This document shows, one piece after another, positions 751-13,770 of a DNA stretch of 64,000 nucleotides. How positions within the stretch are numbered: the first letter of the stretch is position 1; every line of letters begins with the position of its first letter. The notes beneath the pieces were generated by a model. That model was not told the origin of the DNA. It searched no databases and saw nothing but the letters and a program-made list of their open reading frames with translations. Origin of the DNA: Rhodoferax potami (lineage in GTDB: Bacteria; Pseudomonadota; Gammaproteobacteria; Burkholderiales; Burkholderiaceae_C); the NCBI RefSeq assembly GCF_032193805.1, contig NZ_JAVBIK010000001.1, positions 3,059,001 through 3,123,000 on the forward strand, in the 5' to 3' direction. The translations under genes were made by a program, and so were the position numbers.

Positions 751-1500
751 ATGGCGACCAAACGGATTGCGGACGAGCCGGCATTTGTGTTGCATCGCTA
801 CGACTGGAGCGAGAGCAGCTTGATTTTGGAGGTGTTCACCCGCCACTACGGTCGGGTGGCATTGGTCGCCAAAGGGGCGAAAAAGCCCACTTCGAGTTTC
901 CGCCCCATTCTGCTGCCTCTGCAGCCTTTGCACGTAGCCTTTGGAGGCGATGCCGAGATCCGCACTTTGCGCAGCGCAGAGTGGCAGGGCGGGCATGTGA
1001 TGCCGACCGGGGATGCTCTTCTGTCTGGCTACTACCTCAACGAGTTGCTCATTACTTTGTTGGCGCGGGACGACCCGCATGCCGCGCTGTTTGATATCTA
1101 TGCCCAAGTCGTCCGCGTCATTGCCAGCGAGCACGACGAAGTGCTCCAGGCGGCCCTGCGGACCTTCGAGTTGCTGTTGCTGCGCGAAGTGGGTTTTCTG
1201 CCCCAGCTAGATGCACAAACCATGACGCTGGCGCCTTTGCATGCCGATGTGCGTTATGTGCTGGTGCCTGAGGGCGGACTGCGGCAAGCAGGCCCTGACG
1301 ACCGGGTCGGCCTACTCGGAGCCCAGTGGGTGGCGCTGCAAGATGCGATCGCAGACGACGCCCCCTTCACCACCACGCTGCGGGCTTGCGCGGAGGTGAT
1401 GTCAGAACTCAAACCCCAGCTACGGGCGCTGCTGCACTACCATTGCGGCGTCAAGACGCTGCGCACGCGGCAGATGATGATTGATATTCAAAACCTATGA
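751..1500 (+). CDS. recO: DNA repair protein RecO
   Basis: RecO is the mediator that loads RecA onto SSB-coated DNA in the RecFOR gap-repair pathway. The 249-residue length is normal. The N-terminal OB-fold part is recognisable ([24 protein letters not shown], written in two parts: [13 protein letters not shown] and [11 protein letters not shown]), followed by the helical RecO domain. No zinc-binding cysteine cluster is seen. The stop overlaps the start of pdxJ (ATGA at 1497-1500), implying translational coupling. Confidence 0.95.
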
Positions 1501-2246
1501 AAACCCATCTCTCCGTCAACCTGAACAAAGTAGCGCTGGTGCGCAACACCCGCCACCTCGGCATTCCCAGCGTCACCCGCGCAGCGACTTTGTGCCTGGA
1601 GGCGGGCGCCGCGGGTATCACGGTGCACCCGCGCCCTGATGCCCGCCACATCCGCGCGCAGGATGTGCTGGACTTGGCGGAGCTGCTCAAAGCCTGGCCG
1701 GACCGCGAATTCAACGTCGAAGGCAACCCGTTTCACAACCTGATGGATTGTGTGCGCGACCTGCGTGAGCGCGGACTGCCCGTACATCAGGTGACGTTCG
1801 TGCCCGACTCGGAAGGGCAGTTCACCAGCGACCACGGCTGGAGCTTCCCCGCGGATGCCGCACGCTTGCAACCCTTGATCGACGAGGCCCATGCCCTGAA
1901 CCTGCGCGTGAGCCTGTTCATGGACGCAGACCCTGCCGCCATGGCGGCTGCCAAGGCGGTGGGCGCTGACCGCATTGAGCTCTACACCGAGCCGTTTGCC
2001 GCTGCGTGGGGCACCGCGGATCAGCAAGCGCAATTGGATCGTTTCGCCGCTGCCGCCCAAGCCGCGTTGGATGCAGGCCTTGGCGTCAATGCCGGCCATG
2101 ATTTGAACCGCGACAACTTAACCGCGTTTGCGCAGCAGGTTCCCGGTTTGCAAGAGGTCTCTATCGGCCATGCCCTGATTGCCGACTCGCTGGAGCTGGG
2201 CTACACCGCCACCATCAAGGCCTATCTGGCTTGCCTCGGGCAATAA
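1497..2246 (+). CDS. pdxJ: Pyridoxine 5'-phosphate synthase PdxJ
   Basis: PdxJ condenses 1-deoxyxylulose 5-phosphate with 3-amino-2-oxopropyl phosphate in the last ring-forming step of vitamin B6 synthesis. The 249 residues form a TIM barrel with the expected active-site segments [22 protein letters not shown] and [12 protein letters not shown], which carry the catalytic His, Glu and His. Odd point: the first strand reads [13 protein letters not shown], where the enteric enzyme, as I recall it, has N-I-D-H; this may mark a subclass. It is coupled to recO by ATGA and is followed 9 bases later by acpS. Confidence 0.95.
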
Positions 2247-2255
2247 GGGCGAGTC

Positions 2256-2648
2256 TTGATTTACGGCATTGGCACTGATATCTGCGATGTGCGCCGCATA
2301 CGCGCCAGCGTGGAGCGCCACGGCGAGCGCTTTGCAGCCAAGGTGCTGTCCGACGCCGAGCTGGCCACCTGGAAGGCCCGTAGCGCCCGCTGGCCCGAGC
2401 GTGGTTTGCGTTATCTGGCCACCCGTTTTAGTGCCAAGGAGTCGTTCAGCAAGGCGATTGGCTTGGGCATGCGCATGCCCATGAGCTGGAAGCTGTGCGA
2501 AATTGCCAACGAGCGCAATGGCAAGCCGGTCATCGTGTTGCATGGTGAGCTGAAGACCTGGTTTGAAGCCCAAGGGCTGCAGGCCCACATCACTGTGACG
2601 GACGAAACTGACTATGCCGCCAGCTTCTGTGTAGTGGAAACCCGCTGA
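2256..2648 (+). CDS. acpS: Holo-[acyl-carrier-protein] synthase AcpS
   Basis: AcpS moves the 4'-phosphopantetheine arm from CoA to a serine of acyl carrier protein. The protein is 130 residues with the N-terminal metal-binding motif [12 protein letters not shown] and the signature [14 protein letters not shown]. The start is TTG at 2256, because the family's conserved N-terminus (IYGIGTD) begins there and no ATG is available in frame. It lies 9 bases after pdxJ, so it is in the same operon. Confidence 0.94.
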
Positions 2649-2658
2649 GAATATGAGT

Positions 2659-2715
2659 AAAAATAGCCGCTAGCGCTCATAGAATAAGCGCAAGCAGCTC
2701 CTGAATTGATAGCAA
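2659..2715 (-). repeat. Dispersed repeat A, copy 1 (acpS-nagZ gap)
   Basis: Read on the minus strand this is TGCTATCAATTCAGGAGCTG, then CTTGCGC, an ATT-containing spacer, then GAGCGCTAGCGGCTATTTTT. The family pattern is TGCTAY, an A/T stretch, AGCTGCTTGCGC, about 12 variable bases, then GGGCTAGAGGC and T-rich bases. This copy contains the TTG that could serve as an upstream nagZ start. Confidence 0.75.
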
Positions 2716-2723
2716 ACAACACC

Positions 2724-3827
2724 ATGATATTCCACGCCCCTCTGATCATCGATATCGCCGGTACCAGCCTCACCGCCGTGGACCGCAAGCGCCTCAAGCA
2801 CCCGCTGGTGGGGGGCATGATTTTGTTTGCCCGCAACTGGCAAGACCGTGAGCAGCTCACCGCGCTGTGCCGCGACATCAAAAAAGTGCGCGCGGATTTG
2901 CTGATCTGCGTGGACCATGAAGGCGGCCGTGTGCAGCGTTTCAAGACCGATGGTTTCACCCACCTGCCGCCCATGCGCGCCTTGGGGGATATGTGGATGC
3001 GTGACGTGGTGCCTACCACCTCCACCAAGAAGGCGGGCGCCTTGGACGCTACCAACGCGGCCACAGCCACCGGCTACGTGCTGGGCGCCGAGTTGCGCGC
3101 CTGTGGCGTGGATATGAGCTTCACGCCGGTGCTGGACCTCGACTACGGCGAGAGCAGCGTCATTGGTGATCGCGCGTTTGCACGCGACCCGCGTGTGGTG
3201 AGCATGCTGGCCAAGAGCCTGATGCACGGTTTGCAAAAGAGCGGCATGGCCAATTGCGGCAAGCACTTCCCCGGCCATGGCTTTGTGAAAGCCGACTCGC
3301 ACATCGACATACCGGTAGACAAACGCGGCCTCAAAGCCATTTTGGCGGACGACGCCGCACCCTACCGCTGGCTCAACACCGTGACTAGCAGCGTGATGCC
3401 GGCACACGTGATTTATCCCAAGGTCGACAGCCGCCCTGCGGGCTTCTCGAGCGTGTGGCTGAACGACATCTTGCGCGGCCAATTGGGCTTTACCGGTGCC
3501 ATCTTCAGTGACGACCTGTCTATGGCCGGTGCCCGCTTGATCGATGGCAAAACCGTGAGCTACACCGAAGCGGCTGTGGTGGCGCTGAATGCAGGCTGCG
3601 ACTTGGTGCTCTTGTGCAACCAGTCCATGGCCAATGCCGAGGGGGGTGGCAAGGCGGTGGACGAGCTGATCGACGGCCTGACCGAAGCCCAGCTCAAGGG
3701 CCAGTGGCAGGCGCTGGAGGCGAGCGAAGCCCGCCGCCGCGCATTGCTGCCCACCAGCCCTGCCATGGCGTGGGACGACCTCATGGTGCACCCCGACTAC
3801 ATGCAGGCACTGGACTGGATCGCCTGA
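2724..3827 (+). CDS. nagZ: Beta-N-acetylhexosaminidase NagZ (GH3)
   Basis: NagZ is a cytoplasmic glycosidase that removes N-acetylglucosamine from muropeptides during cell-wall recycling. The motif KHFPGHGFVKADSH (near residue 180) and the nucleophile region FSDDLSMAGA (Asp near residue 262) are typical of the bacterial NagZ family. I start at ATG 2724 (367 residues); an in-frame TTG at 2706 would add six residues but lies inside a dispersed repeat. It carries a short insert after MRALGDMWMRD compared with the enteric protein. Last gene of the era operon. Confidence 0.95.
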   Translation: MIFHAPLIIDIAGTSLTAVDRKRLKHPLVGGMILFARNWQDREQLTALCRDIKKVRADLLICVDHEGGRVQRFKTDGFTHLPPMRALGDMWMRDVVPTTSTKKAGALDATNAATATGYVLGAELRACGVDMSFTPVLDLDYGESSVIGDRAFARDPRVVSMLAKSLMHGLQKSGMANCGKHFPGHGFVKADSHIDIPVDKRGLKAILADDAAPYRWLNTVTSSVMPAHVIYPKVDSRPAGFSSVWLNDILRGQLGFTGAIFSDDLSMAGARLIDGKTVSYTEAAVVALNAGCDLVLLCNQSMANAEGGGKAVDELIDGLTEAQLKGQWQALEASEARRRALLPTSPAMAWDDLMVHPDYMQALDWIA

Positions 3828-3847: not shown

Positions 3848-4390
3848 ATGGACTTCGCCGCGCTGATCTATCACCGCCAAGAGTTTCTGGACGGGCAGTG
3901 GTGGTTGCCTTTTACGGCGCAGCTGGTGCACTTCAATCTTGCGCACGGCATGTCCAATGCGATGGTCGCGCTGGTGTTGGGCGCATTATTCCGGCCGATG
4001 CTGGTTTGGGCACACCAGTGCGCCTTGATTTTGGGAAGTGCATTCGCCGTTGCCGTGGTCGTGGTGTCAGATACGAACTGCGCCTACTACGCGGGTGCTT
4101 CTGGCGCGCTGTACGGGTGGGCTGCAGGCGGCTGCCTGATGACGATTTTTTCCGAGAGCGTCAGCTCCCAACCCCACCGGCGGATCGCACTTTTCGTGTT
4201 GTGCCTGTTGCTGGTGCGCTTGGTGACGATGCAGTGGGCCGGGGTCGGAGCTACAGCGTGGGGCTTTCCGGTCTATTTACCCGCCCATTGGGCAGGGCTT
4301 GTTGGCGGACTTGCAGTGGCTAGTTTCTTCATGCGCAGGAAGACGACGCTTGCGCAGACCACGCATCGCCAGCAGAGCGACGAGCGCTAG
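3848..4390 (+). CDS. Rhombosortase-type rhomboid protease (short)
   Basis: Membrane protein of the rhomboid superfamily with the catalytic serine motif GASG (Ser85) and the partner histidine in YLPAHWAGLVGG (His147). The early segment FTAQLVHFNLAHGMSNAM is the usual H-x-x-x-N-like helix. Rhombosortases cleave proteins with a GlyGly-CTERM tail, and the convergent neighbour ends in exactly such a tail. An in-frame stop at 3833-3835 and lack of another start limit the protein to 180 residues, so it begins at the W-W-x-L segment that normally follows helix 1; helix 1 appears missing. Its last 114 bases overlap the protease gene on the other strand. Confidence 0.8.
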   Translation: MDFAALIYHRQEFLDGQWWLPFTAQLVHFNLAHGMSNAMVALVLGALFRPMLVWAHQCALILGSAFAVAVVVVSDTNCAYYAGASGALYGWAAGGCLMTIFSESVSSQPHRRIALFVLCLLLVRLVTMQWAGVGATAWGFPVYLPAHWAGLVGGLAVASFFMRRKTTLAQTTHRQQSDER

Positions 4391-6217
4391 CTCCCATCCC
4401 GACATCGTGCCGCCACCGCCCCCGCTGCTACTTGCGGTGGCAAGGGTCGCGGAGTTGATGGTGAGCGTGACCGTTTGCGGCATGCCCGAGCGGCTGGTAT
4501 CGCTGGGGGTGACGGTGAAGCTATAGGTTCCGAGCACGGGGATACTCCAACGGAAGCGGCCTGTGCTGCTGAGTGTCGCCCCTGCAGGTAACCCGGAGCT
4601 GGAGAACGTGACCGTATCCGCCGAGTCTGCATCAACGGCGGTGACATCAAATTGGAGGTCGATGCCTTCGGTACCCGTTTGCGTGGGCGCCGACGTCATG
4701 GAAGGTGGAGTGTTTGACGCAGAGCCCTCGCTCACCTGCAAGGCCTTGACCGCTGCAAAGGCATCCAACATGCCGGTGCCGCAGGTGGTCAATGATGCGC
4801 AAACAGTTCCCGACCGGAAGGGGCGGGTGTTGTTCTTTAACAGCGCCGCAATTTGTGCAGGTGTCAGGGTTGGCTTGATTTGCAGCAGGAGTGCGGCGGC
4901 CGCGGCAACATGCGGCGCAGCCATGCTGGTACCGCTTTTGAGCAAGATCGCATCGCTCTGAGGCGTGGTCCGGCCCGTGTTGTCGGTGGAAAAAATGCTG
5001 GAGCCGGGTGCACTGAGGGCGACTTGCGCTCCAATGTTGGCGAAGCTCGATTTTTCCCCCGTGATGGTGTGGGCGGTCACCGCAATCACGCCATCGCAAT
5101 TTGCCGGCGAGGAGACGGGGCCCCCGTCGTCATTCCCGGCCGACACCACCACAGTGGTGCCTGCCGCTACAACTGCGTTGACGGCATCCCTATACGAGTT
5201 GGAGCAGCTTCCCGTGCTACCCAGGCTCATGTTGATGACTTTGGCGATATTCGGGTTGGTGACGCCATTCACTTGGCGAAGGCCTGCAGCCCAATACATT
5301 CCTTCCTGGATATCCGATGAGTAACCACCGCATACCCCCAACACCCGAACCGGCAGTATCTTGGCGCCGAAAGCACCACCGATAACGCCGCTGCTGTTAT
5401 TGGCAACTGCGGCAATGGTGCCTGCGACATGGGTACCGTGCCAGCTGGAGTCCTCCACCGCGCAATCGCTCGCGTTGGAATTCCAGTCTCCGGGGTCTGT
5501 GGGGTTATCGTCACGCCCATCTCCATCATTCGCCGTTGTAAATGTGGTGTTGATGGGCGGGTTATCGGCTGAAATGAAATCGTAGCCCTGCAACACGTTG
5601 GCCGCCAAGTCCGGATGGGGGCGATACCCCGAGTCCAACACCGCCACGATCACCCCCGCACCCGTCACCGGGGTGCTGGATCCAATCATCCGATCCCATG
5701 CGAGCTGGAAATTGGCCCCGCCGACCGCACCAGCAGGTGATTTGAGGTTCCATAAGCTGCTGAAAAACGTGTCGTTCGGCGACAGGTGCGCTTGCACGCG
5801 CTCATCAATCTCGACGTACTCCACCGCAGGGTCTTTGGCCAGCTTGGCTATGACCGACTGCATTTCCAGCCGGGTCAAGGGGGCGCCGGTGCTCGCCACC
5901 TGGATGCCGTTGTAAATGGTTTTCAGGTGGCGCAGATTCAATTCGTGCCCAGCCACAGTGCTGGCCGCGCGCTCTTTCAAACCTTGAACACGTTCCCTGT
6001 CGCTGGTCTCTGCGAAGAGGTGAGCGGCTTTGGACTCTTTGGGGGTCTTGAATTTGATGATCAACCGGCTGTACGTCGCCCCCTCCAGGGAGGCGGCGGA
6101 GCGGGCGACTTTGGCTGGTGGGCCCTCAGTGAAAGGCAGAGCAGCAAGCGCGGGTATCGCTCCGAGGGCAAGGGCGCTAAGGGTGGCATTTCTGAGTAAA
6201 CGCAAATAAGGTGTCAT
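4277..6217 (-). CDS. S8 (subtilisin-like) serine protease with GlyGly-CTERM tail
   Basis: Secreted protease of 646 residues. In order: signal peptide (about 1-26, ending PALAA); propeptide of the I9 type (about 48-145, with MQSVIAKLAKDPAVEYVEID); subtilase domain with the triad Asp195 (VAVLDSGYRPHPDL), His260 (SSWHGTHVAGT) and Ser431 (SGTSMAAPHVA); a putative Ig-like domain (about 505-590); then a glycine run (599-603), a hydrophobic helix (606-620) and RKRR (622-625). The last three parts make a GlyGly-CTERM signal, which rhombosortases process in type II secretion-linked export. A further 21 residues follow RKRR, longer than usual, and this part overlaps the rhombosortase gene. It is 11 bases after the lipoprotein gene. 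Confidence 0.93.
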   Translation of the reverse strand: MTPYLRLLRNATLSALALGAIPALAALPFTEGPPAKVARSAASLEGATYSRLIIKFKTPKESKAAHLFAETSDRERVQGLKERAASTVAGHELNLRHLKTIYNGIQVASTGAPLTRLEMQSVIAKLAKDPAVEYVEIDERVQAHLSPNDTFFSSLWNLKSPAGAVGGANFQLAWDRMIGSSTPVTGAGVIVAVLDSGYRPHPDLAANVLQGYDFISADNPPINTTFTTANDGDGRDDNPTDPGDWNSNASDCAVEDSSWHGTHVAGTIAAVANNSSGVIGGAFGAKILPVRVLGVCGGYSSDIQEGMYWAAGLRQVNGVTNPNIAKVINMSLGSTGSCSNSYRDAVNAVVAAGTTVVVSAGNDDGGPVSSPANCDGVIAVTAHTITGEKSSFANIGAQVALSAPGSSIFSTDNTGRTTPQSDAILLKSGTSMAAPHVAAAAALLLQIKPTLTPAQIAALLKNNTRPFRSGTVCASLTTCGTGMLDAFAAVKALQVSEGSASNTPPSMTSAPTQTGTEGIDLQFDVTAVDADSADTVTFSSSGLPAGATLSSTGRFRWSIPVLGTYSFTVTPSDTSRSGMPQTVTLTINSATLATASSSGGGGGTMSGWELALVALLAMRGLRKRRLPAHEETSHCKSANKPCPMGG

Positions 6218-6228
6218 CGCAAGTGCCC

Positions 6229-6603
6229 CTAATTTCGCATCGCTTTGGCATCCAGTTCGGCATATCGCACTCCGGGGGCCTTTGCGAGTTTTGCCACAAG
6301 GTCTTGGGTCGTCTGCCCGGGTTGTGGAGTGATGGCGAGCAAACAGCTGGTCGCTGACATCTTTGCCACAAATACGATGGATGCGGCACCGGTGGATGCA
6401 GAGAGGCTCCGCACCAGTGCTGTGGGATCTTCAGGGATGGGTTCGTGAGTGCCCACCATTAGGCGTACCGCTTGGGTGGAGACAGGTGTCGTTGCTGAGG
6501 CGACGCTTGGACTCATGGACGGGCCCAATCCGCAGCCGGAGAGAGTCGTTAAAAGCGCCAAAAAAATGCCAAAAGTGAACAGTTTCACAATGCTCCCTCG
6601 CAT
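6229..6603 (-). CDS. Lipoprotein with propeptide-like (I9-like) domain
   Basis: Predicted lipoprotein of 124 residues starting at ATG 6603, with a hydrophobic signal and the lipobox LSGC (lipidated Cys24). An upstream in-frame start at 6648 would put 15 residues before the signal. The rest looks like a free-standing protease propeptide: the end TQDLVAKLAKAPGVRYAELD matches the propeptide of the adjacent protease (MQSVIAKLAKDPAVEYVEID) almost residue for residue, and the preceding strand segments also line up (VRLMVGTH, SCLLAIT). The protease start lies 11 bases downstream, with AGGGG of this gene's end serving as its ribosome-binding site. A role as inhibitor or folding helper of the protease is inference. 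Confidence 0.75.
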   Translation of the reverse strand: MRGSIVKLFTFGIFLALLTTLSGCGLGPSMSPSVASATTPVSTQAVRLMVGTHEPIPEDPTALVRSLSASTGAASIVFVAKMSATSCLLAITPQPGQTTQDLVAKLAKAPGVRYAELDAKAMRN

Positions 6604-6721
6604 GTGTCGAAACAGAGTGGGGTGCGTGAGTCTGCGGGCAGACATCACTTTTTCACATTGTAGGCACGAGCCGAAAGGGCTACCAAAGACTAAGGAAAGC
6701 GGCCCGGTTGTTCGCCGAGTA

Positions 6722-6949
6722 TCAGGGTGAGCGGTGCAGCCGGGGAGCCGAAAGGGCGACGATCTGGTCGCGGGTCGCTTCGTCGATCAGGCGGTGCTTG
6801 AGCAGGCTGCCGTCTGCGGTCATGAGCGCCCGCAGTTGTTGCAGATCTTTGACGGTCGGGGCGACCTTGATCTGTGCAAGCGCAGCCTGGCTGTTGTTGC
6901 CTTTGATGAGTGCTGCCACTTTGGTGGCCCAAACGCTGGGACGAGACAT
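6722..6949 (-). CDS. Small hypothetical protein (75 residues)
   Basis: Function not recognised. The ORF starts at ATG 6949 and encodes a basic, helical, soluble-looking protein starting MSRPSVWATKVAALIKGNN and ending SAPRLHRSP, with no signal or membrane segment. I prefer this short start because the longer ORF in the same frame is only the mirror of the fecR-like gene. No clear ribosome-binding site precedes it. It reads towards the lipoprotein and protease genes but is 118 bases away from them. I have a weak memory of similar short proteins in Comamonadaceae; homology was not checked. Confidence 0.5.
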   Translation of the reverse strand: MSRPSVWATKVAALIKGNNSQAALAQIKVAPTVKDLQQLRALMTADGSLLKHRLIDEATRDQIVALSAPRLHRSP

Positions 6950-7114
6950 GTGATGGAGTGGCCAACTTTGATAAAGAAGGTTATTTTCGCACACCACCGC
7001 CAGAAACGCTTCATGGATTGCTACGAAAACAATAGCGCCAATGCGACCGTTGATCGCAATCCCTACATTTCTCCTGCTGGAATAGACCACGCCGATCCGG
7101 TACCATCGCCGGCT

Positions 7115-7588
7115 ATGACTCAAGCACATACCGGTTTTAGAGCGTTGACGCGCAGCACCATGTTGGCCTGCACCCTTGGGCTGGCCCTTTGGAGTCCATC
7201 TGTGATGGCGCAAGAGGCCCGCAGTGGGACGTTTAAAACAGTGCAGGGCGGTGTCAGGGTGCTCCAAGGCGATGCCCAGCGCGCAGTCATTCCCGGTGCC
7301 GGTGTGCAAGAGGCAGAAAGAGTCCAAACCGATGCAAGCGGTTCTGCCGTGCTGATGCTGCGCGACGGTACATCGATTGCCATTGGCCCGAACACCACCG
7401 TCGATATCAGCCGCTTTCAGTTTGACGGCACCACCCAGCAAGGCAGCCTCGCAGTCCGGGTGCTGCAGGGCACGATCCGGATGGTGACCGGCCTGTTAGG
7501 CAAGGTGCAACCAGACAACGTCAAAGTGACAACGCCCGCCACAACCGTTAGTGTGCGCGGCACGGATTTCATTGTGGAGGTGCTATGA
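7115..7588 (+). CDS. FecR-domain exported protein
   Basis: Exported protein of 157 residues. The start at ATG 7115 puts a signal peptide at the N-terminus (ends SPSVMAQ). The mature part is a FecR domain: GGVRVLQGDA, SAVLMLRDGTSIAIGPNT and the ending TTVSVRGTDFIVEV. Unlike true FecR it has no cytoplasmic anti-sigma part and no TonB-receptor or sigma-factor neighbour, so it is probably a periplasmic structural or sensory module. Its stop overlaps the next gene (ATGA 7585-7588), which encodes an OmpA-like lipoprotein; the two are likely made together. Confidence 0.85.
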   Translation: MTQAHTGFRALTRSTMLACTLGLALWSPSVMAQEARSGTFKTVQGGVRVLQGDAQRAVIPGAGVQEAERVQTDASGSAVLMLRDGTSIAIGPNTTVDISRFQFDGTTQQGSLAVRVLQGTIRMVTGLLGKVQPDNVKVTTPATTVSVRGTDFIVEVL

Positions 7589-8172
7589 GCGTGCGTTACC
7601 TCGTTGTTGTTGCATTGCTCGGCCTGCAAGCATGTGCCCCTGTAAGCCGTGTTATTTTGTTGCCGGATAGTGAGGGCCGGTCTACCGCAGTCCAGGTGAG
7701 CAATGCCGGCGGTGTAGTGGATTTGACCCAGCCCTTTCAAACTGCAGCGTTGCAGCAGGACGGCCGCTTGGAAGCAGGCGTACTCAGTGCTGATGAAGTT
7801 CAAGAGAAATACAAGGGGCTGCTGGCGTTGCCGATGCCCACAGCGTCTCAATTGACATTGCGGTTTGAGCCTGGCACATCCAATTTGACGGCGGAGTCTC
7901 AGGGCCAGCTCCCGGAGATCATTGCGTTGGCTTCACAGCGGGCAGGCGGTGAAATCCTGGTGGTGGGTCATACCGACCGCACAGGGAGCCCGCAGGCCAA
8001 CGACACTTTGTCATTGCAGCGAGCGCAAGCGGTGCGTGAGCTGCTGGTACAGCGCGGCTTTGCGCCTGAACGGATTGAGGCAATTGGCCGTGGCGAGCGT
8101 GAGCCGGTGGTCCCGACCGAAGCCAATGTGAATGAACCCCGTAACCGCCGCGCAGAAATCATCATTCGCTGA
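7585..8172 (+). CDS. OmpA-family lipoprotein
   Basis: Lipoprotein of 195 residues: signal with lipobox LQAC (Cys17), a middle region without recognised domain (with SRVILLPDSEGR), and a C-terminal OmpA/Pal peptidoglycan-binding domain from about residue 85. The OmpA signature is seen as VVGHTDRTGSPQANDTLSLQ and the ending NEPRNRRAEIII. It should tether the outer membrane to the cell wall. Translationally coupled to the FecR-domain gene, suggesting a shared envelope role, but the pathway is unknown. Confidence 0.9.
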   Translation: MSVRYLVVVALLGLQACAPVSRVILLPDSEGRSTAVQVSNAGGVVDLTQPFQTAALQQDGRLEAGVLSADEVQEKYKGLLALPMPTASQLTLRFEPGTSNLTAESQGQLPEIIALASQRAGGEILVVGHTDRTGSPQANDTLSLQRAQAVRELLVQRGFAPERIEAIGRGEREPVVPTEANVNEPRNRRAEIIIR

Positions 8173-8189
8173 GCGCGTTTGGGTCTTTG

Positions 8190-8555
8190 ATGGTGAAAAA
8201 AACGCTCTCTGATCTTGGTGGTTTGGTGTATTCGACCGAGGTGGGGCGCACCTGCCCGGTGTGCCGTCAAGCCATTGCTGAATGCGTGTGCCACACGCCC
8301 AAGCGACCTGCTGGCGATGGCATTGTGCGCGTGTCCCGCGAGACCAAAGGTCGCGCAGGCAAAGGTGTAACGCTGGTGAAGGGTGTCCCGCTGGACGATG
8401 AAGCGTTGATGGCTTTGGGCAAAAAACTCAAGGCGGCCTGTGGCTCCGGCGGTACCGTCAAAGACGGCGTGATTGAAGTGCAGGGCGACCATGTCGAGAA
8501 AGTCATGGTGGCTCTCGTCGCGCACGGTTTCACCGTCAAGCGCGCGGGTGGCTGA
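8190..8555 (+). CDS. yciH: YciH-type translation factor (eIF1/SUI1 family)
   Basis: Protein of 121 residues with the SUI1 fold (GTVKDGVIEVQGDHVEKVMVALVAHGF is the core; quoted here as GTVKDGVIEVQGDH and KVMVALVAHGF). The N-terminal part has four cysteines (CPVCRQAIAECVC) that could bind zinc. Bacterial YciH is related to eukaryotic eIF1 and affects start-site selection on leaderless or unusual mRNAs in E. coli. The start is ATG 8190; a TTG codon directly before it is possible. TGATG overlap links it to the next gene. Confidence 0.88.
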   Translation: MVKKTLSDLGGLVYSTEVGRTCPVCRQAIAECVCHTPKRPAGDGIVRVSRETKGRAGKGVTLVKGVPLDDEALMALGKKLKAACGSGGTVKDGVIEVQGDHVEKVMVALVAHGFTVKRAGG

Positions 8556-8767
8556 TGCAGGCAGAAGACCTGCAAAAGCTGGTTGAGCGCACCATGCCCT
8601 TCGGTAAATACCGAGGGCGCTTGATTGCAGATTTACCCGGCGACTACCTGAACTGGTTTGCGCGCACCGGTTTTCCCAAAGGGGAGATGGGTCGCTTATT
8701 GCAGCTGATGCATGAGATTGACCACAACGGCTTGAGCGATCTGCTCACGCCACTGCGCCAGCGCTAA
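8555..8767 (+). CDS. DUF3820 family protein
   Basis: Small protein of 70 residues with the DUF3820 hallmark MPFGKYRGRLIADLPGDYLN near the N-terminus, followed by an acidic/helical tail. No membrane or export signal. Function is not established; some members are annotated as quorum-sensing-regulated factors and related domains occur in exonuclease-like proteins. The start overlaps the stop of yciH (TGATG at 8553-8557), so it is co-translated with it. Confidence 0.85.
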   Translation: MQAEDLQKLVERTMPFGKYRGRLIADLPGDYLNWFARTGFPKGEMGRLLQLMHEIDHNGLSDLLTPLRQR

Positions 8768-8770
8768 CGG

Positions 8771-9373
8771 CTAGAGCCCCAGCAAAGCCGAGCGCAGCTC
8801 CGGTTTTCGCGCTTTGGGGTCCAGCCAGATTTTGAAAAATGCTTCGCTGAAGGTGGCGTCCGCGGTTTCACCCAGCAGTTTGCCGTTCAGGAAAAAGCGG
8901 GCGCCCGCACCGGGCACATGCACGCCCAGCAAACGGTCGCCGGATTTCACATCGATAAACAAGCCCGTCATGAAGTTGGACCAGGTTTGCACCTGCTCTG
9001 GCGTTGCGGCGCTGATGCGGGATATCTCAATCAGCGAGGTGTTGTTGATGTCGCTGGCTTTGACCGAGGTGTTGTACACAATCTCCAGGGCAAAAGTCCG
9101 GCTGAAGCTGAAGTCTCCTCCGCTTGCCGCGGGCAACCACAGCGTAGCGTCATACGCCTTGAATCCAAAGAACTTCAAGGGGCCGCTGCCCTTGGGTAGC
9201 CAGTTTGCACCATAGGCGCTTAGCGCGGCGGGGGCGCGGCTGGCAGGGGGCTGCTCTTGCGCCCTGCCGGGAGCGCTGAGCGCCCCTAGCAAAGCAGCCA
9301 TTACCAGCGGTCGTCGTCGCACTGCGGTAGTGTTGAAGGTGGTGGGGGCCATGGGGTTCAGTGCATCGGACAT
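8771..9373 (-). CDS. Chalcone-isomerase-like exported protein
   Basis: Protein of 200 residues from ATG 9373. It starts with a signal peptide whose n-region has three arginines (VRRRPLVMAALLGALSAPGRA), then a chalcone-isomerase-like domain: LKFFGFKAYDATLWLP, ALEIVYNTSVKASDI, and the C-terminal FFLNGKLLGETADATFSEAF and FKIWLDPKA. Such bacterial proteins are periplasmic, and enzymatic activity is mostly not shown. In-frame starts also exist at 9412 and 9352. It is convergent with the DUF3820 gene (three bases apart). Confidence 0.82.
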   Translation of the reverse strand: MSDALNPMAPTTFNTTAVRRRPLVMAALLGALSAPGRAQEQPPASRAPAALSAYGANWLPKGSGPLKFFGFKAYDATLWLPAASGGDFSFSRTFALEIVYNTSVKASDINNTSLIEISRISAATPEQVQTWSNFMTGLFIDVKSGDRLLGVHVPGAGARFFLNGKLLGETADATFSEAFFKIWLDPKARKPELRSALLGL

Positions 9374-9457
9374 GACCCAATTTTGGCTGAAACGCGCAAG
9401 AAAGCAACCCACTCGGATAAAAAAAGACTGAGTAGTATTTTTTTGTGCGCTAACGGG

Positions 9458-10018
9458 CTATCCGGCTGATGCCGATGCTTCTCGCCAAACCCCGGGTTGC
9501 AAGTTGTCCAAATGGTGGGGGCCAATGGCTGCACGTATCAGCCTTAGGGTGGGGTAGCCCACGGCGGCCGTCATACGCCGCACCTGCCGGTTGCGCCCCT
9601 CGCGGATCACCAATTCCACCCAACTGGTCGGAATGGATTGGCGAAAGCGCACCGGTGGGTTGCGCTCCCACAAGCCTTCGGGGGGGTGGATGCGCTGCGC
9701 GCGCGCCGGCAGGGTAATGCCGTCGTTGAGCTTCACGCCTTGGCGTAGCGCTGCCAAGGCGGCCTCGTCAGGTTCACCCTCCACTTGCACCCAATAGGTC
9801 TTTTCCATCTTGAAGCGCGGGTCGCTGATGCGCGCCTGTAGCTTGCCGTCGTTGGTGAGTAGCAGCAGGCCTTCGCTGTCGGCGTCTAGCCGTCCTGCGA
9901 CATAGACGCCGGGCAAATCAATAAAGTCTTTGAGCCCGCGCCAGCGCCCCTCGGGCGTGAACTGGCTCAGCACTCCGTAGGGTTTGTTAAAGCAAATCAG
10001 GCTGGAGGGGGGCAGCAT
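9458..10018 (-). CDS. rluE: 23S rRNA pseudouridine synthase, RluE type
   Basis: Pseudouridine synthase of the RsuA/RluB/E/F family, 186 residues, close to RluE length. The catalytic aspartate is in [17 protein letters not shown] (near residue 44), and the C-terminal signature is [20 protein letters not shown]. There is no N-terminal S4 domain, which RluE also lacks. RluE modifies U2457 of 23S rRNA in E. coli; same-site activity here is inference. It follows the YgjP-like gene with a gap of three bases. Confidence 0.9.
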
Positions 10019-10021
10019 GGC

Positions 10022-10555
10022 TTATTCCGCTTCGGCCCAGAGCCGTTGGCCCGTGGCCTCCAAGTGGGTAAGGTAAATGCGCACCTCAAACTCCAGTTGG
10101 TGGTAGGCGGGCTCCATGTGGGTACAGAGCTTGTAGAAGGCCTTGTCATGCTCGCGCTCGCGCAGATGGGCCAGCTCATGCACCACAATCATTTTCAGAA
10201 AGGGCTCCGGCGTGTCTTTAAACAGGCTGGCGACCCGGATCTCACGTTTGCTTTTGAGCTTGCTGCCCTGCACGCGCGAGACAGTGGTGTGCGTGCCCAG
10301 CGCGTTCTTGACGACATGGAGCTTGCTGTCGAACGCCACCTTGGAGAGCGGTTCCGTGCTGCGCAGGTAGTCGGCCTTGAGGTCTTGCACATAGTCGTAC
10401 AGCACCTTGTCGGTCCGCACCCCGTGCGCTTGCGGGTGGCGCTGGGTCAGCCAGCTGCCCACCCGGCCCTCGTCGAGCATGCGCTGTACTTGGGCAAGCG
10501 TGTCTGCGGGGTAGCCATTGAGGTAGCGCAGCGCAGGCGTTGCTACCATTTTCAT
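10022..10555 (-). CDS. YgjP-like (DUF45) metallopeptidase-fold protein
   Basis: Protein of about 177 residues with the zinc motif HELAHLREREHDKAFY (HExxH and a downstream His) typical of YgjP/DUF45 proteins. These have a WLM/SprT-like peptidase fold; proteolysis is not proven for most. The longest ORF starts at 10603, but its first 16 codons lie inside a dispersed repeat (10541-10596), so I use ATG 10555; ATG 10549 is equally possible. It sits between lysS and rluE on the same strand with very short gaps. Confidence 0.85.
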   Translation of the reverse strand: MKMVATPALRYLNGYPADTLAQVQRMLDEGRVGSWLTQRHPQAHGVRTDKVLYDYVQDLKADYLRSTEPLSKVAFDSKLHVVKNALGTHTTVSRVQGSKLKSKREIRVASLFKDTPEPFLKMIVVHELAHLREREHDKAFYKLCTHMEPAYHQLEFEVRIYLTHLEATGQRLWAEAE

Positions 10556-10596
10556 AGCTACTTGCGCAGATTCCGCCCGAGCTAAGGGCCGGTTTT
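10541..10596 (+). repeat. Dispersed repeat A, copy 2 (5' end of YgjP-like gene)
   Basis: Reads TGCTACCATTTTCATAGCTA, CTTGCGCAGATTCC, then GAGCTAAGGGCCGGTTTT, matching the family pattern along its full length. It covers the start region of the YgjP-like gene and the short lysS-ygjP gap, so this gene probably takes its start codon from the repeat. Confidence 0.75.
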
Positions 10597-10610
10597 GCTT
10601 CAAATCTGAA

Positions 10611-12158
10611 TCAGACTTCGCGGCGCAGCGCGGGGAACAAAATCACGTCGCGGATGCTGGCGCTGTCGGTCAGCAACATCATCAGGCGGTCGATACCGAT
10701 ACCACAGCCGCCGGTGGGGGGCATGCCGTATTCCAGGGCGCGCACAAAGTCGTGGTCGAAGTGCATGGCCTCGTCGTCACCGCTGTCTTTGGCGGCTACT
10801 TGGGCGTGGAAGCGGGCGGCCTGGTCTTCAGCGTCGTTCAGCTCAGAAAAGCCGTTGCCGAACTCACGGCCGGTGATGTAGAGCTCAAAGCGCTCGGTCA
10901 CTTCAGGGCGGTCGTCATTGGCTCGGGCCAGTGGCGAAATTTCGGTGGGGTGCTCCATGATGAAGGTGGGGTTCCACAACTTCTCTTCCACGGTCTCTTC
11001 AAAGTACAGCACCTGCAGGCTGGCGAGGCTGCGGCCCTCCAAGCGGTTTTTTGCTTCGGTCAAGCCCAGCTTCTTCACCGCGTTGGTCAGCCAAGTAGCG
11101 TCAAACACGTTGTCGCCAGCGTCGGTGTACTTCTGGATGGCTTCAACGATGGTCAGGCGCTCAAACGGCTGCTCCAGGTCCACCGGCTTGCCGGCGTAGC
11201 TCAGTTGCAAGCCACCGGTGGCCTTCTGGGCGGCGTCGCGGATCAGCTTCTCGGTGTAGTCCATCAGGTCCTGGTAGTTCCAGTAGGCCGCGTAGAACTC
11301 CATCATGGTGAACTCGGGGTTGTGGCGCACCGAGATACCTTCGTTGCGGTAGCTGCGGTTGATTTCGAACACGCGGTCGAAGCCGCCAACGATCAGGCGC
11401 TTGAGGTACAGCTCAGGCGCAATGCGCAAGAACATTTCCTGGTCCAGCGCATTGTGGTGGGTCTTGAAGGGTTTGGCATTCGCACCACCGGGGATCGGGT
11501 GCAACATGGGTGTTTCCACTTCCAGGAAGTTGTGGCCCACCATGAACTCGCGCAGGGCGCTCACGGCCTTGCTGCGTGCCACGAAACGCTTGCGCGAGTC
11601 CACATCGGTCATCAGGTCCACATAGCGCTGTCGGTATTTGGTTTCCAGGTCCGCCATGCCGTGGAACTTATCGGGCATGGGGCGCAGACTCTTGGTGAGC
11701 AGGCGGATGCTGGTGGCATGGATGGACAGCTCACCGGTCTTGGTTTTGAACAAGGTGCCTTCAGCTGCCACGATGTCGCCCAAATCCCAGTGCTTGAAAG
11801 CGGCGTACAGGTCCACACCCACGTCTTCACCGCGCACATAGAGCTGGATGCGGCCGCCGCTGGGTCCGAAAGAAGAGTCTTGCAAGGTGCAGAAGCTGGC
11901 TTTGCCCATGACGCGTTTGAGCATCATGCGGCCGGCTACCTTGGCGGTGGCGCCCAAGGCCACCAACTCTTCTGCGGTCTTGTCGTTGTGGGCCGCGAAC
12001 AAGGCTTCTGCTTTGTCTTCGGGTTGGAAGTCGTTGGGGAAGGCAACGCCTTGACCAGCGGCCTGCTGCTCGCGCAGTGCCTTGAGCTTTTCACGGCGCT
12101 CTTGGATCAACTGGTTTTCGTCTTGCGGTGCGGGAGCGGCTTGGTTTTGGTCAGACAT
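10611..12158 (-). CDS. lysS: Lysyl-tRNA synthetase, class II
   Basis: Charges tRNA-Lys with lysine. From ATG 12158 it has 515 residues: a basic N-terminal helix, the OB-fold anticodon-binding domain, then the class II catalytic core with motif 2 ([20 protein letters not shown]) and motif 3 ([14 protein letters not shown]). A TTG 36 bases upstream would extend it, but ATG followed by SDQNQ is the usual family start. The next genes (YgjP-like, rluE) follow closely on the same strand. Confidence 0.97.
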
Positions 12159-12278
12159 GGAGTGACTTGTGGGTTCGGTAGGAGAAATCGGCAAACCTCA
12201 AGGGGTTTTGGCCGCAACCCTCCATTGTAAGAGGGCAGGCTGCCGCTATGATGCGCTCGCACTTTACTTGGATCGCCC

Positions 12279-12851
12279 ATGCTCTACAAAATCGTTGTTC
12301 TCTTGTTGGAAGTGGTGACCGGCTTGTTGACCACCACCTGTTTGTTGCGCCTTTACATGCAGCAACAGCGCATACCTTTGTCCGCCCGCTCGGGGAACCC
12401 GCTGGGGCGTTTTGTGTTTGCTTTGACGGATTGGATCGTGCTGCCCCTGCGCCGCGTCGTACCGGCATTGGGCCCTTGGGACATGGCGAGCTTAGTTGCC
12501 GCATTTTTGATCCAGCTGGCGCATTTCGGGGTGCTCTGGGCCCTCAATGGGTTTGGCGTGACACCGCTGTCGATCGTGGTGCTGGCCTTGCTGGGCCTGG
12601 TGCGCCTGAGCTTGTCGGGCCTGACCGCGCTGGTATTGGTCTACGCCGTGTTGAGTTGGGTGCAGGCGCAGTCGTTTTTCTCAGAGCTCATCGGTCGGCT
12701 GGTAACGCCGGTGCTGGCACCCATCCGCAAAGTTGTGCCTCTGGTGGGTGGGGTGGATTTGTCGCCCCTGGTGCTATTGGTCTTGCTGCAGATTTTGACG
12801 ATTGTGCTGGGTGACCTGCAATACACCATGCTGTCAGCAGTAGCCGGATAA
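12279..12851 (+). CDS. YggT family membrane protein
   Basis: Integral membrane protein of 190 residues with two YggT repeats, each ending in the family-type stretch (DWIVLPLRRVVPALGPWD and RLVTPVLAPIRKVVPLVGGV). Four to five hydrophobic helices. YggT proteins are linked to osmotic tolerance and, in some bacteria, cell-division-associated clusters; the exact role is unknown. A -10-like TATGAT at 12246-12251 lies 27 bases before ATG. It ends at a bidirectional terminator. Confidence 0.88.
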   Translation: MLYKIVVLLLEVVTGLLTTTCLLRLYMQQQRIPLSARSGNPLGRFVFALTDWIVLPLRRVVPALGPWDMASLVAAFLIQLAHFGVLWALNGFGVTPLSIVVLALLGLVRLSLSGLTALVLVYAVLSWVQAQSFFSELIGRLVTPVLAPIRKVVPLVGGVDLSPLVLLVLLQILTIVLGDLQYTMLSAVAG

Positions 12852-12880
12852 AAAAAGAGGCCCGATGGGCCTCTTTTTTT
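12850..12880. terminator. Bidirectional intrinsic terminator (yggT / accD)
   Basis: Stem AGAGGCCC / GGGCCTCT with a three- to four-base loop, flanked by an A run and a T run, so it can terminate yggT on plus and the trp-accD transcript on minus. Confidence 0.9.
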
Positions 12881-12897
12881 GGGGCGGAGCCGGATTC

Positions 12898-13770
12898 TCA
12901 AATCACGGCATCTGCAGGCTGGCGCTGCAGCATCGCCAAGGTCTCCGCAATGGTTTTGCGCAGCTCGCGGCGGTCAGAGATGAAGTCAATCGCGCCCTTG
13001 GTCTGCAAGAATTCCGAGCGCTGAAAGCCTTCCGGCAGAGTCACTCGCACGGTGGATTCAATGACCCGGGGGCCTGCGAAGCCGATCAGGGCTTTGGGCT
13101 CTGCAATCACCACATCGCCCAGGAAAGCAAAGCCCGCGCTCACCCCACCCATGGTGGGGTCGGTCAGCACGCTGATATAGGGCAAGCCTTTTTTGGCCAG
13201 GCGGGTGAGCGCTGCATTGGTTTTGGCCATTTGCATCAGGCTCAGCAAGCCTTCTTGCATGCGGGCTCCACCGGTCGCGGTAAAGCAGACAAACGGCACT
13301 TTTTGTTCGATGGCAGTCTCCACGCCACGGACAAAGCGCTCGCCCACCACAGAGCCCATGGAGCCGCCCATGAATTCAAATTCAAAGCAGGCTGCCACCA
13401 AGCTGACGCCGTGCACTGCGCCACCCATGACGATCAGTGCATCGGTCTCGCCGGTGTTTTCAAGGGCTTCTTTCAGCCGCTCAGGGTATTTGCGGCTGTC
13501 TTTGAATTTCAAGGCGTCAACCGGCAGCACTTCCTGACCGATCTCGAAGCGACCTTCGTTGTCCAGAAAGGCATTCAGGCGTGCACGGGCGCCGATACGG
13601 TGATGGTGGCCACAGCTGGGGCACACATTCTGGTTTTGCTCCAGGTCGGTTTTGTAGAGCACCGATTCGCAGCTGGGGCACTTGATCCACAGGCCTTCGG
13701 GCACGCTGCGGCGCTCCGTGGGGTCGGTGTGTTGAATCTTGGGGGGTAGCAGTTTTTCCAACCAACTCAT
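12898..13770 (-). CDS. accD: Acetyl-CoA carboxylase carboxyltransferase subunit beta
   Basis: Beta half of the carboxyltransferase that makes malonyl-CoA for fatty acid synthesis. It has 290 residues, with an N-terminal C4 zinc finger (CPSCESVLY ... NVCPSCGHH) and the crotonase-like core with [17 protein letters not shown] and [15 protein letters not shown]. The order trpB-trpA-accD on one strand is common in Burkholderiales. The 85-base gap after trpA shows no clear terminator. Confidence 0.97.

Follow-up and report, generated by a model that had tools for sequence, protein, structure and literature searches.

A lipoprotein gene that directly precedes a subtilase gene in Rhodoferax potami encodes a free-standing, predictably lipid-anchored relative of the subtilase's own propeptide. 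Profile comparisons show homology between the mature lipoprotein and the propeptide at the N-terminus of S8 subtilases, and pairs of this lipoprotein with an S8 protease number 37 in our searches, spread over several proteobacterial families. By a narrow balance, we favor the interpretation that the lipoprotein is a stand-alone subtilase propeptide that acts in trans, restraining the adjoining autoprocessing protease in the envelope before export. It would probably keep the protease from damaging the cell that produces it.

The pair lies in the stretch of 64,000 nucleotides that was analyzed (the window), and its features are collected in Table 1. A sequence-only reading of the window had described a propeptide-like lipoprotein beside an S8 protease, and the gene, the lipobox and the 11-base gap that separates the lipoprotein gene from the downstream protease gene on the same (-) strand are all as it described them. 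The GTG codon at 6588, which is in frame and follows GAGGGAG, is the likelier start of the lipoprotein, so that the preferred product has 119 rather than 124 residues. The protease continues for 21 residues beyond the RKRR of its surface-sorting tail, and the NCBIfam GlyGly-CTERM model gave no match to this tail. The protease gene and the rhombosortase gene that converges with it share 114 bases at their 3' ends (4277-4390).

Table 1. Features of the window locus and of two type II secretion operons that contain a lipoprotein/protease pair (positions are those of each locus).
Locus	Feature	Position	Strand	Details
Window	Lipoprotein gene	6229..6603	-	124 aa from ATG 6603; 119 aa from GTG 6588; mature part about 101 aa
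Window	Lipobox cysteine, TTLSG|CGLG, +2 = Gly	6532..6534	-	Cys invariant in lipoprotein alignment
Window	Propeptide-homologous domain of lipoprotein (predicted)	6232..6474	-	AlphaFold2 core pLDDT above 90; hhalign E 1.9e-15 against cognate propeptides
Window	E-x-D motif (ELD) in lipoprotein	6250..6258	-	Putative counterpart of helix-capping Glu69/Asp71 of the subtilisin BPN' propeptide; role as described in PMC6993865
Window	C-terminal tail of lipoprotein, AKAMRN, six residues	6232..6249	-	End presumably corresponds to the propeptide cleavage point of subtilisin
Window	S8 subtilase gene, 646 aa	4277..6217	-	Signal peptide, propeptide, catalytic domain, Ig-like domain, GlyGly-CTERM-like tail
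Window	Own propeptide of S8 protease	5789..6139	-	Profile comparisons
Window	Peptidase_S8 catalytic domain	4826..5662	-	PF00082, E 1.1e-58
Window	GlyGly-CTERM-like tail of protease	4343..4432	-	SSSGGGGG, hydrophobic stretch, RKRR; tail pattern
Window	Rhombosortase gene, convergent with protease gene	3848..4390	+	TIGR03902 E 1.4e-23, 83.5 bits against cut-off 84; Pfam Rhomboid
L073	GspE	1479-3080
L073	GspF	4189-5475
L073	Lipoprotein/protease pair	5520-7819
L073	GspH	8403-9014
L074	GspK	1055-2083
L074	GspH	3209-3715
L074	Lipoprotein/protease pair	4710-6757
L074	GspC/D/E	8007-12899

The same reading had aligned the C-terminal part of the lipoprotein with the propeptide of the protease, and the best BLASTP match between the two proteins falls at exactly that segment. 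Residues 100-120 of the lipoprotein pair with propeptide residues 120-140 at 11 of 21 identities (E = 2e-5 for this single comparison), and one of 2000 shuffled mature lipoproteins equalled the BLASTP score against the propeptide region. This pairwise alignment covers the last helix and strand only, and homology over the whole domain requires profiles. When 25 lipoproteins were compared with their 25 cognate propeptides using hhalign, the two alignments matched over 85 columns with a probability of 98.5 and an E value of 1.9e-15. Across the 4.0-Mb genome, a profile built from lipoproteins only, the window member included, had two matches at E <= 1e-4, namely the gene itself and the propeptide of the neighboring protease (E = 2.0e-5). 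The lipoprotein-only profile also matched the S8 open reading frame at 68 of 80 loci that had been retrieved by their protease domain. The 73 matches at E < 0.05 among the 3672 open reading frames of these loci comprised the 68 S8 frames and five S8-adjoining lipoproteins, and no others.

Searches of the PDB and of domain libraries gave weaker signals. Subtilases account for 15 of the 17 PDB proteins that matched the lipoprotein profile, nearly all of them as propeptide chains, with matches that are individually weak (best E 0.005); phmmer with the single lipoprotein sequence found no match in the PDB. No Pfam or NCBIfam model matched the window lipoprotein above its cut-off. Its score against PF22148 was 16.6 bits, below the cut-off of 21, and by gathering cut-off it is not filed as a Pfam member of either Inhibitor_I9 or Fervidolysin_NPro-like. 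Other lipoproteins that were scanned matched the propeptide models marginally, with best E values of 0.0017 (PF22148) and 0.023 (Inhibitor_I9). A match to ORF_2_N was discarded, being at chance level and on a protease rather than on a lipoprotein.

The propeptide-type fold that the sequence-only reading implied was recovered in AlphaFold2 models of two distant members. The window lipoprotein, modeled from a lipoprotein-only alignment, has the element order E-H-E-E-H-E, with core pLDDT mostly above 90 and a mean of 83.6. The L077 lipoprotein, a distant relative encoded downstream of its protease, has the same order of elements at a mean pLDDT of 88.2. Foldseek and VIA-align searches with the first model were dominated by ferredoxin-like domains (NikR, ACT, EF-1B and S6), and the prodomains of subtilases and proprotein convertases (PC) were level with these other folds at Z scores of 6.4-6.9 (9fid_D, 9fic, 3cnq_P and 1scj_B). 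Because this fold is common to many unrelated families, a structure search by itself does not distinguish propeptides from other proteins, and we dropped it as proof of propeptide identity.

A search for the gene pair in other genomes, which had been suggested along with the original reading, showed that the linkage is conserved. Fold and linkage together lend partial support to that reading, in which the lipoprotein could inhibit the protease in the periplasm or assist its folding ahead of export. The 37 pairs consist of 26 from the first searches (L084 among them), four from named or metagenome records (Keguizhuia sedimenti L094, Nitrosomonadales MAG L096, Herminiimonas MAG L099 and Nitrospirae MAG L144) and seven from other families of the class (L175, L177, L180, L181, L182, L184 and L196); L091 was left out of the count as a duplicate of L062. 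The lipoprotein gene is upstream of the protease gene in 33 pairs and downstream in four (L077, L078, L177 and L182). Spacing in 23 upstream pairs ranges from -71 to 108 bases, and a 4-base overlap is frequent; the value of -71, at L072, stems from using the longest possible frame. The lipoprotein relatives are mostly 16-30% identical and occur in the same genus, family, order and class. Free-standing lipoproteins were found in at least 12 of 61 genomes of the genus, at least nine of 399 of the family, at least seven of 399 of the order and at least eight of 369 of the class, with the window genome included each time; these frequencies are lower bounds, since the best 10-13 candidates per genome were scored in most runs. 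The profile failed to pick up the L084 lipoprotein, which came to light when its neighborhood was read, and therefore absence of a profile match elsewhere is no proof that the lipoprotein is absent. Conversely, only five of the 80 protease loci have a lipoprotein, which shows that S8 proteases do not in general come with one.

Several candidates were rejected as family members. G406/L021 scored E 0.008 and has three internal stops, the matches at L037 and L044 span the signal region of transporter-like lipoproteins, L036 is the N-terminal part of an S8-like gene where a contig ends, and L190 is the N-terminal piece of an S8 reading frame. Other longer matching frames were taken as S8 propeptides, after inspection in the family and order scans; in the class scan, inspection covered the short-frame loci and L190. 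At L181 (3-1776), the lipoprotein gene is flanked on both sides by S8 protease genes of the same strand, and the protease from the first of these has a GlyGly-type tail. The L059 lipoprotein (6541-6948) has a weak lipobox and an eroded domain and is possibly degenerating, and it adjoins an intact, tail-bearing protease.

All 37 lipoproteins have intact frames and a lipobox cysteine. Under the +2 rule of the Lol pathway, lipoproteins without Asp at this position go to the outer membrane. The residue at +2 is never Asp among the 37 (A 14, S 6, G 4, T 4, V 4, Q 2, C 1, E 1 and H 1), and we therefore predict that these lipoproteins are sorted to the outer membrane.

The last strand of the domain carries a motif that points to a propeptide-like mode of binding. 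The subtilisin BPN' propeptide uses Glu69 and Asp71 to cap helices of its enzyme, and the C-terminal tails of propeptides reach into the active-site groove, as described in PMC6993865. In the corresponding E-x-D of the 37 lipoproteins, read by hand from the C-terminal tails, E is retained by 32 and D by 35, and L182 has lost the motif. The D is followed by exactly six residues in 19 of the 37 lipoproteins, and by 4-17 in the remainder. The subtilisin propeptide, which we take to be 77 residues long, presumably also has six residues past Asp71, ending with Tyr77 at the P1 position. Judged from these counts, a six-residue tail as in subtilisin would be a tendency of the lipoproteins. The tails of L059, L071, L075, L084, L180 and L184 were read by eye, and the other rows were parsed by script.

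The partner proteases usually end in a surface-sorting tail of the GlyGly-CTERM or JDVT-CTERM type. The GlyGly-type pattern was found in 21 of 25 pair proteases with uncut sequence, or 22 counting L057, which the pattern misses and which was assigned by eye; L075, L077 and L078 have no such tail. Among the 79 uncut loci of the protease scan, a lipoprotein adjoins four of the seven proteases with a tail versus none of the 72 without (Fisher test, p = 2.3e-5, relatedness ignored). With Proteobacteria only, the counts are three of six versus none of 29 (p = 0.003, relatedness again ignored). A stricter tail classifier gave three of four versus one of 75 (p = 2e-4) and missed L094, L095 and L155; the looser pattern was adopted after these misses had been seen. 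Tail-bearing S8 proteases also occur without an adjoining lipoprotein, at L095, L155, L169, L083, L086 and L087, and L083 and L086 are from the same genus as the window.

Sorting enzymes accompany many of the pairs; like the surface-sorting tail and the type II secretion context, the rhombosortase gene had gone unmentioned in the sequence-only reading. Rhombosortase-like matches were found in 19 of 23 genomes, with 11 of the 23 over the cut-off, and the genomes with no such match are G481 (JDVT-CTERM protease), G619, G798 and G459 (no tail). Rhombosortase-like matches below the cut-off turned up in each of the 14 control genomes as well, and therefore only matches that exceed the cut-off or adjoin the protease carry weight. 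The match directly adjoins the protease in 13 of 23 genomes, which are the window genome and 12 others (G000, G125, G274, G287, G337, G163, G445, G443, G448, G401, G447, G419 and G512). At L094, L096 and L099, genes for lipoprotein, protease and rhombosortase stand in a row on one strand. At L144, the protease matches JDVT-CTERM (30.4 bits, cut-off 27) and the gene after it matches MrtJ, which sorts JDVT-CTERM proteins. Two pairs are located within type II secretion operons, between GspF and GspH at L073 and between GspE and GspH at L074. These two loci come from two families of the order, and their proteases are of the JDVT-CTERM type. GspD was found in nine of nine genomes searched. The pair proteases are presumed type II substrates.

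The evolutionary history of the lipoprotein and propeptide domains was examined with one tree of 28 domains of each kind, in which the two kinds separate with two label changes versus 19 for shuffled labels. A single origin of the lipoproteins was not rejected (p-AU 0.39, from one tree with few columns and long branches), and a single old origin is possible. The groups L070/L071/L072/L075/L084, L094/L096/L099/L144 and L055/L056/L058 recur on both sides of the tree, a pattern that fits long co-inheritance of lipoproteins and propeptides, albeit weakly because the alignment is short. The lipoprotein had originally been called an extra copy of the propeptide. This description is too simple, since the tree sets the lipoproteins largely apart and recent copying is not seen. 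The lipoprotein and protease of the Nitrospirae MAG contig L144 (387-3487, which also encodes MrtJ) group with the proteobacterial ones in the tree; this placement could reflect either lateral transfer or a binning error.

Taken with the tails and sorting enzymes, the homology suggests how a tethered propeptide might act. Sec would export both lipoprotein and protease, as their signal sequences suggest, and the lipoprotein would be acylated and, having no Asp at +2, delivered to the periplasmic face of the outer membrane. The protease would fold with its own propeptide and then cut it off; subtilases remove their own propeptides once folded, and this step is established for the family. Having cleaved itself, the protease would be unrestrained in the periplasm until its C-terminus is trimmed and the type II system exports it. 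The lipoprotein would then take the same surface that the propeptide had occupied, with E-x-D capping helices of the catalytic domain and the free C-terminal tail lying product-like in the active-site cleft, and the protease would stay inactive while awaiting C-terminal trimming by rhombosortase and passage through the type II system. Once exported, the protease would leave its tethered inhibitor behind and become active at the cell surface.

Studies of Vibrio cholerae illustrate what such restraint could accomplish. Mutants in its type II secretion system (T2SS) gain mutations that inactivate the T2SS-secreted protease VesC, and the authors tie this inactivation to relief of envelope damage, according to PMC7771236. 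VesB, a trypsin-like GlyGly-CTERM protease and the studied case of the GlyGly-CTERM/rhombosortase system, is inactive inside T2SS mutants, and its activation seemingly follows export, according to PMC6219818. A self-processing subtilase could not delay its activation in the manner of VesB, and a tethered second propeptide would serve this purpose. Against restraint, the protease has its own propeptide and a second is not obviously needed; in addition, there are tail-bearing proteases without the lipoprotein and three pairs without a tail, and the lipoprotein's own C-terminal tail varies in length. We also advance, more tentatively and at somewhat less than even likelihood, the broader idea that an outer-membrane lipoprotein propeptide is a third component beside a sorting-tailed protease and its sorting peptidase (rhombosortase or MrtJ). 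Crossing of the outer membrane would release inhibition and so act as the activation switch, and the lipoproteins would form an unnamed, widespread family.

The main rival to restraint is that the lipoprotein serves chiefly as a membrane-anchored chaperone for folding and hand-over to the type II system, by which the protease would attain or retain a secretion-competent fold, in the manner of Lif with lipases, CpaB with CpaA and ORF2 with ASP, and with inhibition secondary. The "T2SS chaperones" of PMC4713064 share an adjacent gene, a periplasmic domain and a membrane anchor, subtilase propeptides are both chaperones and inhibitors (PMC6993865), and the pair sits inside the gsp operon at L073 and L074. 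However, the protease has a propeptide in cis, unlike the Aeromonas sobria protease ASP, related tail-bearing proteases do without the lipoprotein, and the predicted sorting to the outer membrane would be late for a foldase. We regard a mainly chaperoning role as rather unlikely, while noting that chaperoning and inhibition are not exclusive, because propeptides do both.

Two further explanations fare less well. The lipoprotein could remain with the protease at the outer surface and regulate it there, or shield the surface from its own or foreign subtilases. Tails and +2 residues do predict an outer-membrane location for both partners, but there is no sign that the lipoprotein is surface-exposed, and its tight, dedicated linkage speaks against a general anti-protease role; we consider this improbable. 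Least credible of all is that duplication of the propeptide left the lipoprotein behind as a decaying relic or by-product that binds nothing. Low identity, mostly 16-28% to the window member, and the degenerate appearance of L059 would fit such decay, which is nevertheless hard to reconcile with the uniformly intact frames and lipoboxes, the conserved E-x-D, the matching lipoprotein and propeptide clades and the linkage across families.

Restraint by a tethered propeptide has partial parallels in known systems. Three stand-alone I9 (MEROPS) inhibitors resemble propeptides, namely Pleurotus peptidase A inhibitor 1, yeast peptidase B inhibitor and Arabidopsis SPI-1, and further mimics are TgMIC5 and Plasmodium SUB1-ProM (PMC6993865). 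These, too, are small propeptide-fold proteins for which action in trans is known or proposed, and SUB1-ProM, like the lipoprotein, is encoded beside subtilisin genes; all mimics named in PMC6993865 are eukaryotic, and none is described there as a lipoprotein with a C-terminal sorting enzyme. CpaB and LipB/Lif are likewise membrane-anchored, periplasmic and encoded next to one secreted hydrolase, but their anchor is transmembrane rather than lipid, CpaB reportedly has an SRPBCC domain, and no propeptide homology is described in the accessible text of PMC4713064. The N-terminal transmembrane domain by which that source recognizes type II chaperones is replaced by a lipobox in every lipoprotein of our set, and each of the 37 lipoprotein genes adjoins an S8 protease gene, inside gsp operons at L073 and L074, which would amount to adjacency to a type II effector if the proteases are indeed substrates. 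By analogy, the lipoprotein may work like a type II secretion chaperone, although it is not a member of that group.

ORF2 of A. sobria is the operon partner of the subtilisin-like protease ASP, and its C-terminus enters and inhibits the active site; ASP, however, is propeptide-deficient and ORF2 is encoded downstream (PMC5638518), whereas the cognate proteases here have propeptides. PrcB of the Treponema denticola dentilisin operon is a lipoprotein encoded upstream of, and needed for, a subtilisin-family protease, but, compared by description, it is a 23-kDa protein in a surface complex and reportedly has no homologues outside oral treponemes (PMC8167434). The partner protease and adjoining rhombosortase fit the dedicated-system pattern of GlyGly-CTERM and rhombosortase given in PMC3237569, the text of which makes no mention of a lipoprotein, propeptide or subtilisin. 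In the open-licence literature, we found no bacterial lipoprotein propeptide family tied to rhombosortase, MrtJ or type II secretion. Stand-alone propeptide mimics are thus already known, and it is the lipoprotein form tied to bacterial surface sorting that is apparently new. One bacterial propeptide mimic, Spi, is encoded beside its protease SpeB, but SpeB is a cysteine protease, the fold is different and Spi is not known to be a lipoprotein.

We know of no settled account of what keeps self-activating subtilases harmless in Gram-negative bacteria until they are displayed at the surface, and a dedicated lipid-anchored propeptide would be a simple answer. It could also account for the toxic effect of losing secretion in some species. 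The lipoprotein family may be useful as a marker for surface protease systems and as a source of natural trans-acting propeptides for protease production.

Two more S8 matches were found in the window genome (L172 and L173), and no adjoining lipoprotein of the propeptide-like family was seen at either. L172 (C1:216463-220266) is a subtilase whose C-terminal end resembles an autotransporter barrel. Upstream of the pair in the window, on the other strand, genes for a secreted FecR-like protein and an OmpA-type lipoprotein, identified by eye, lie back to back (7116-8172).
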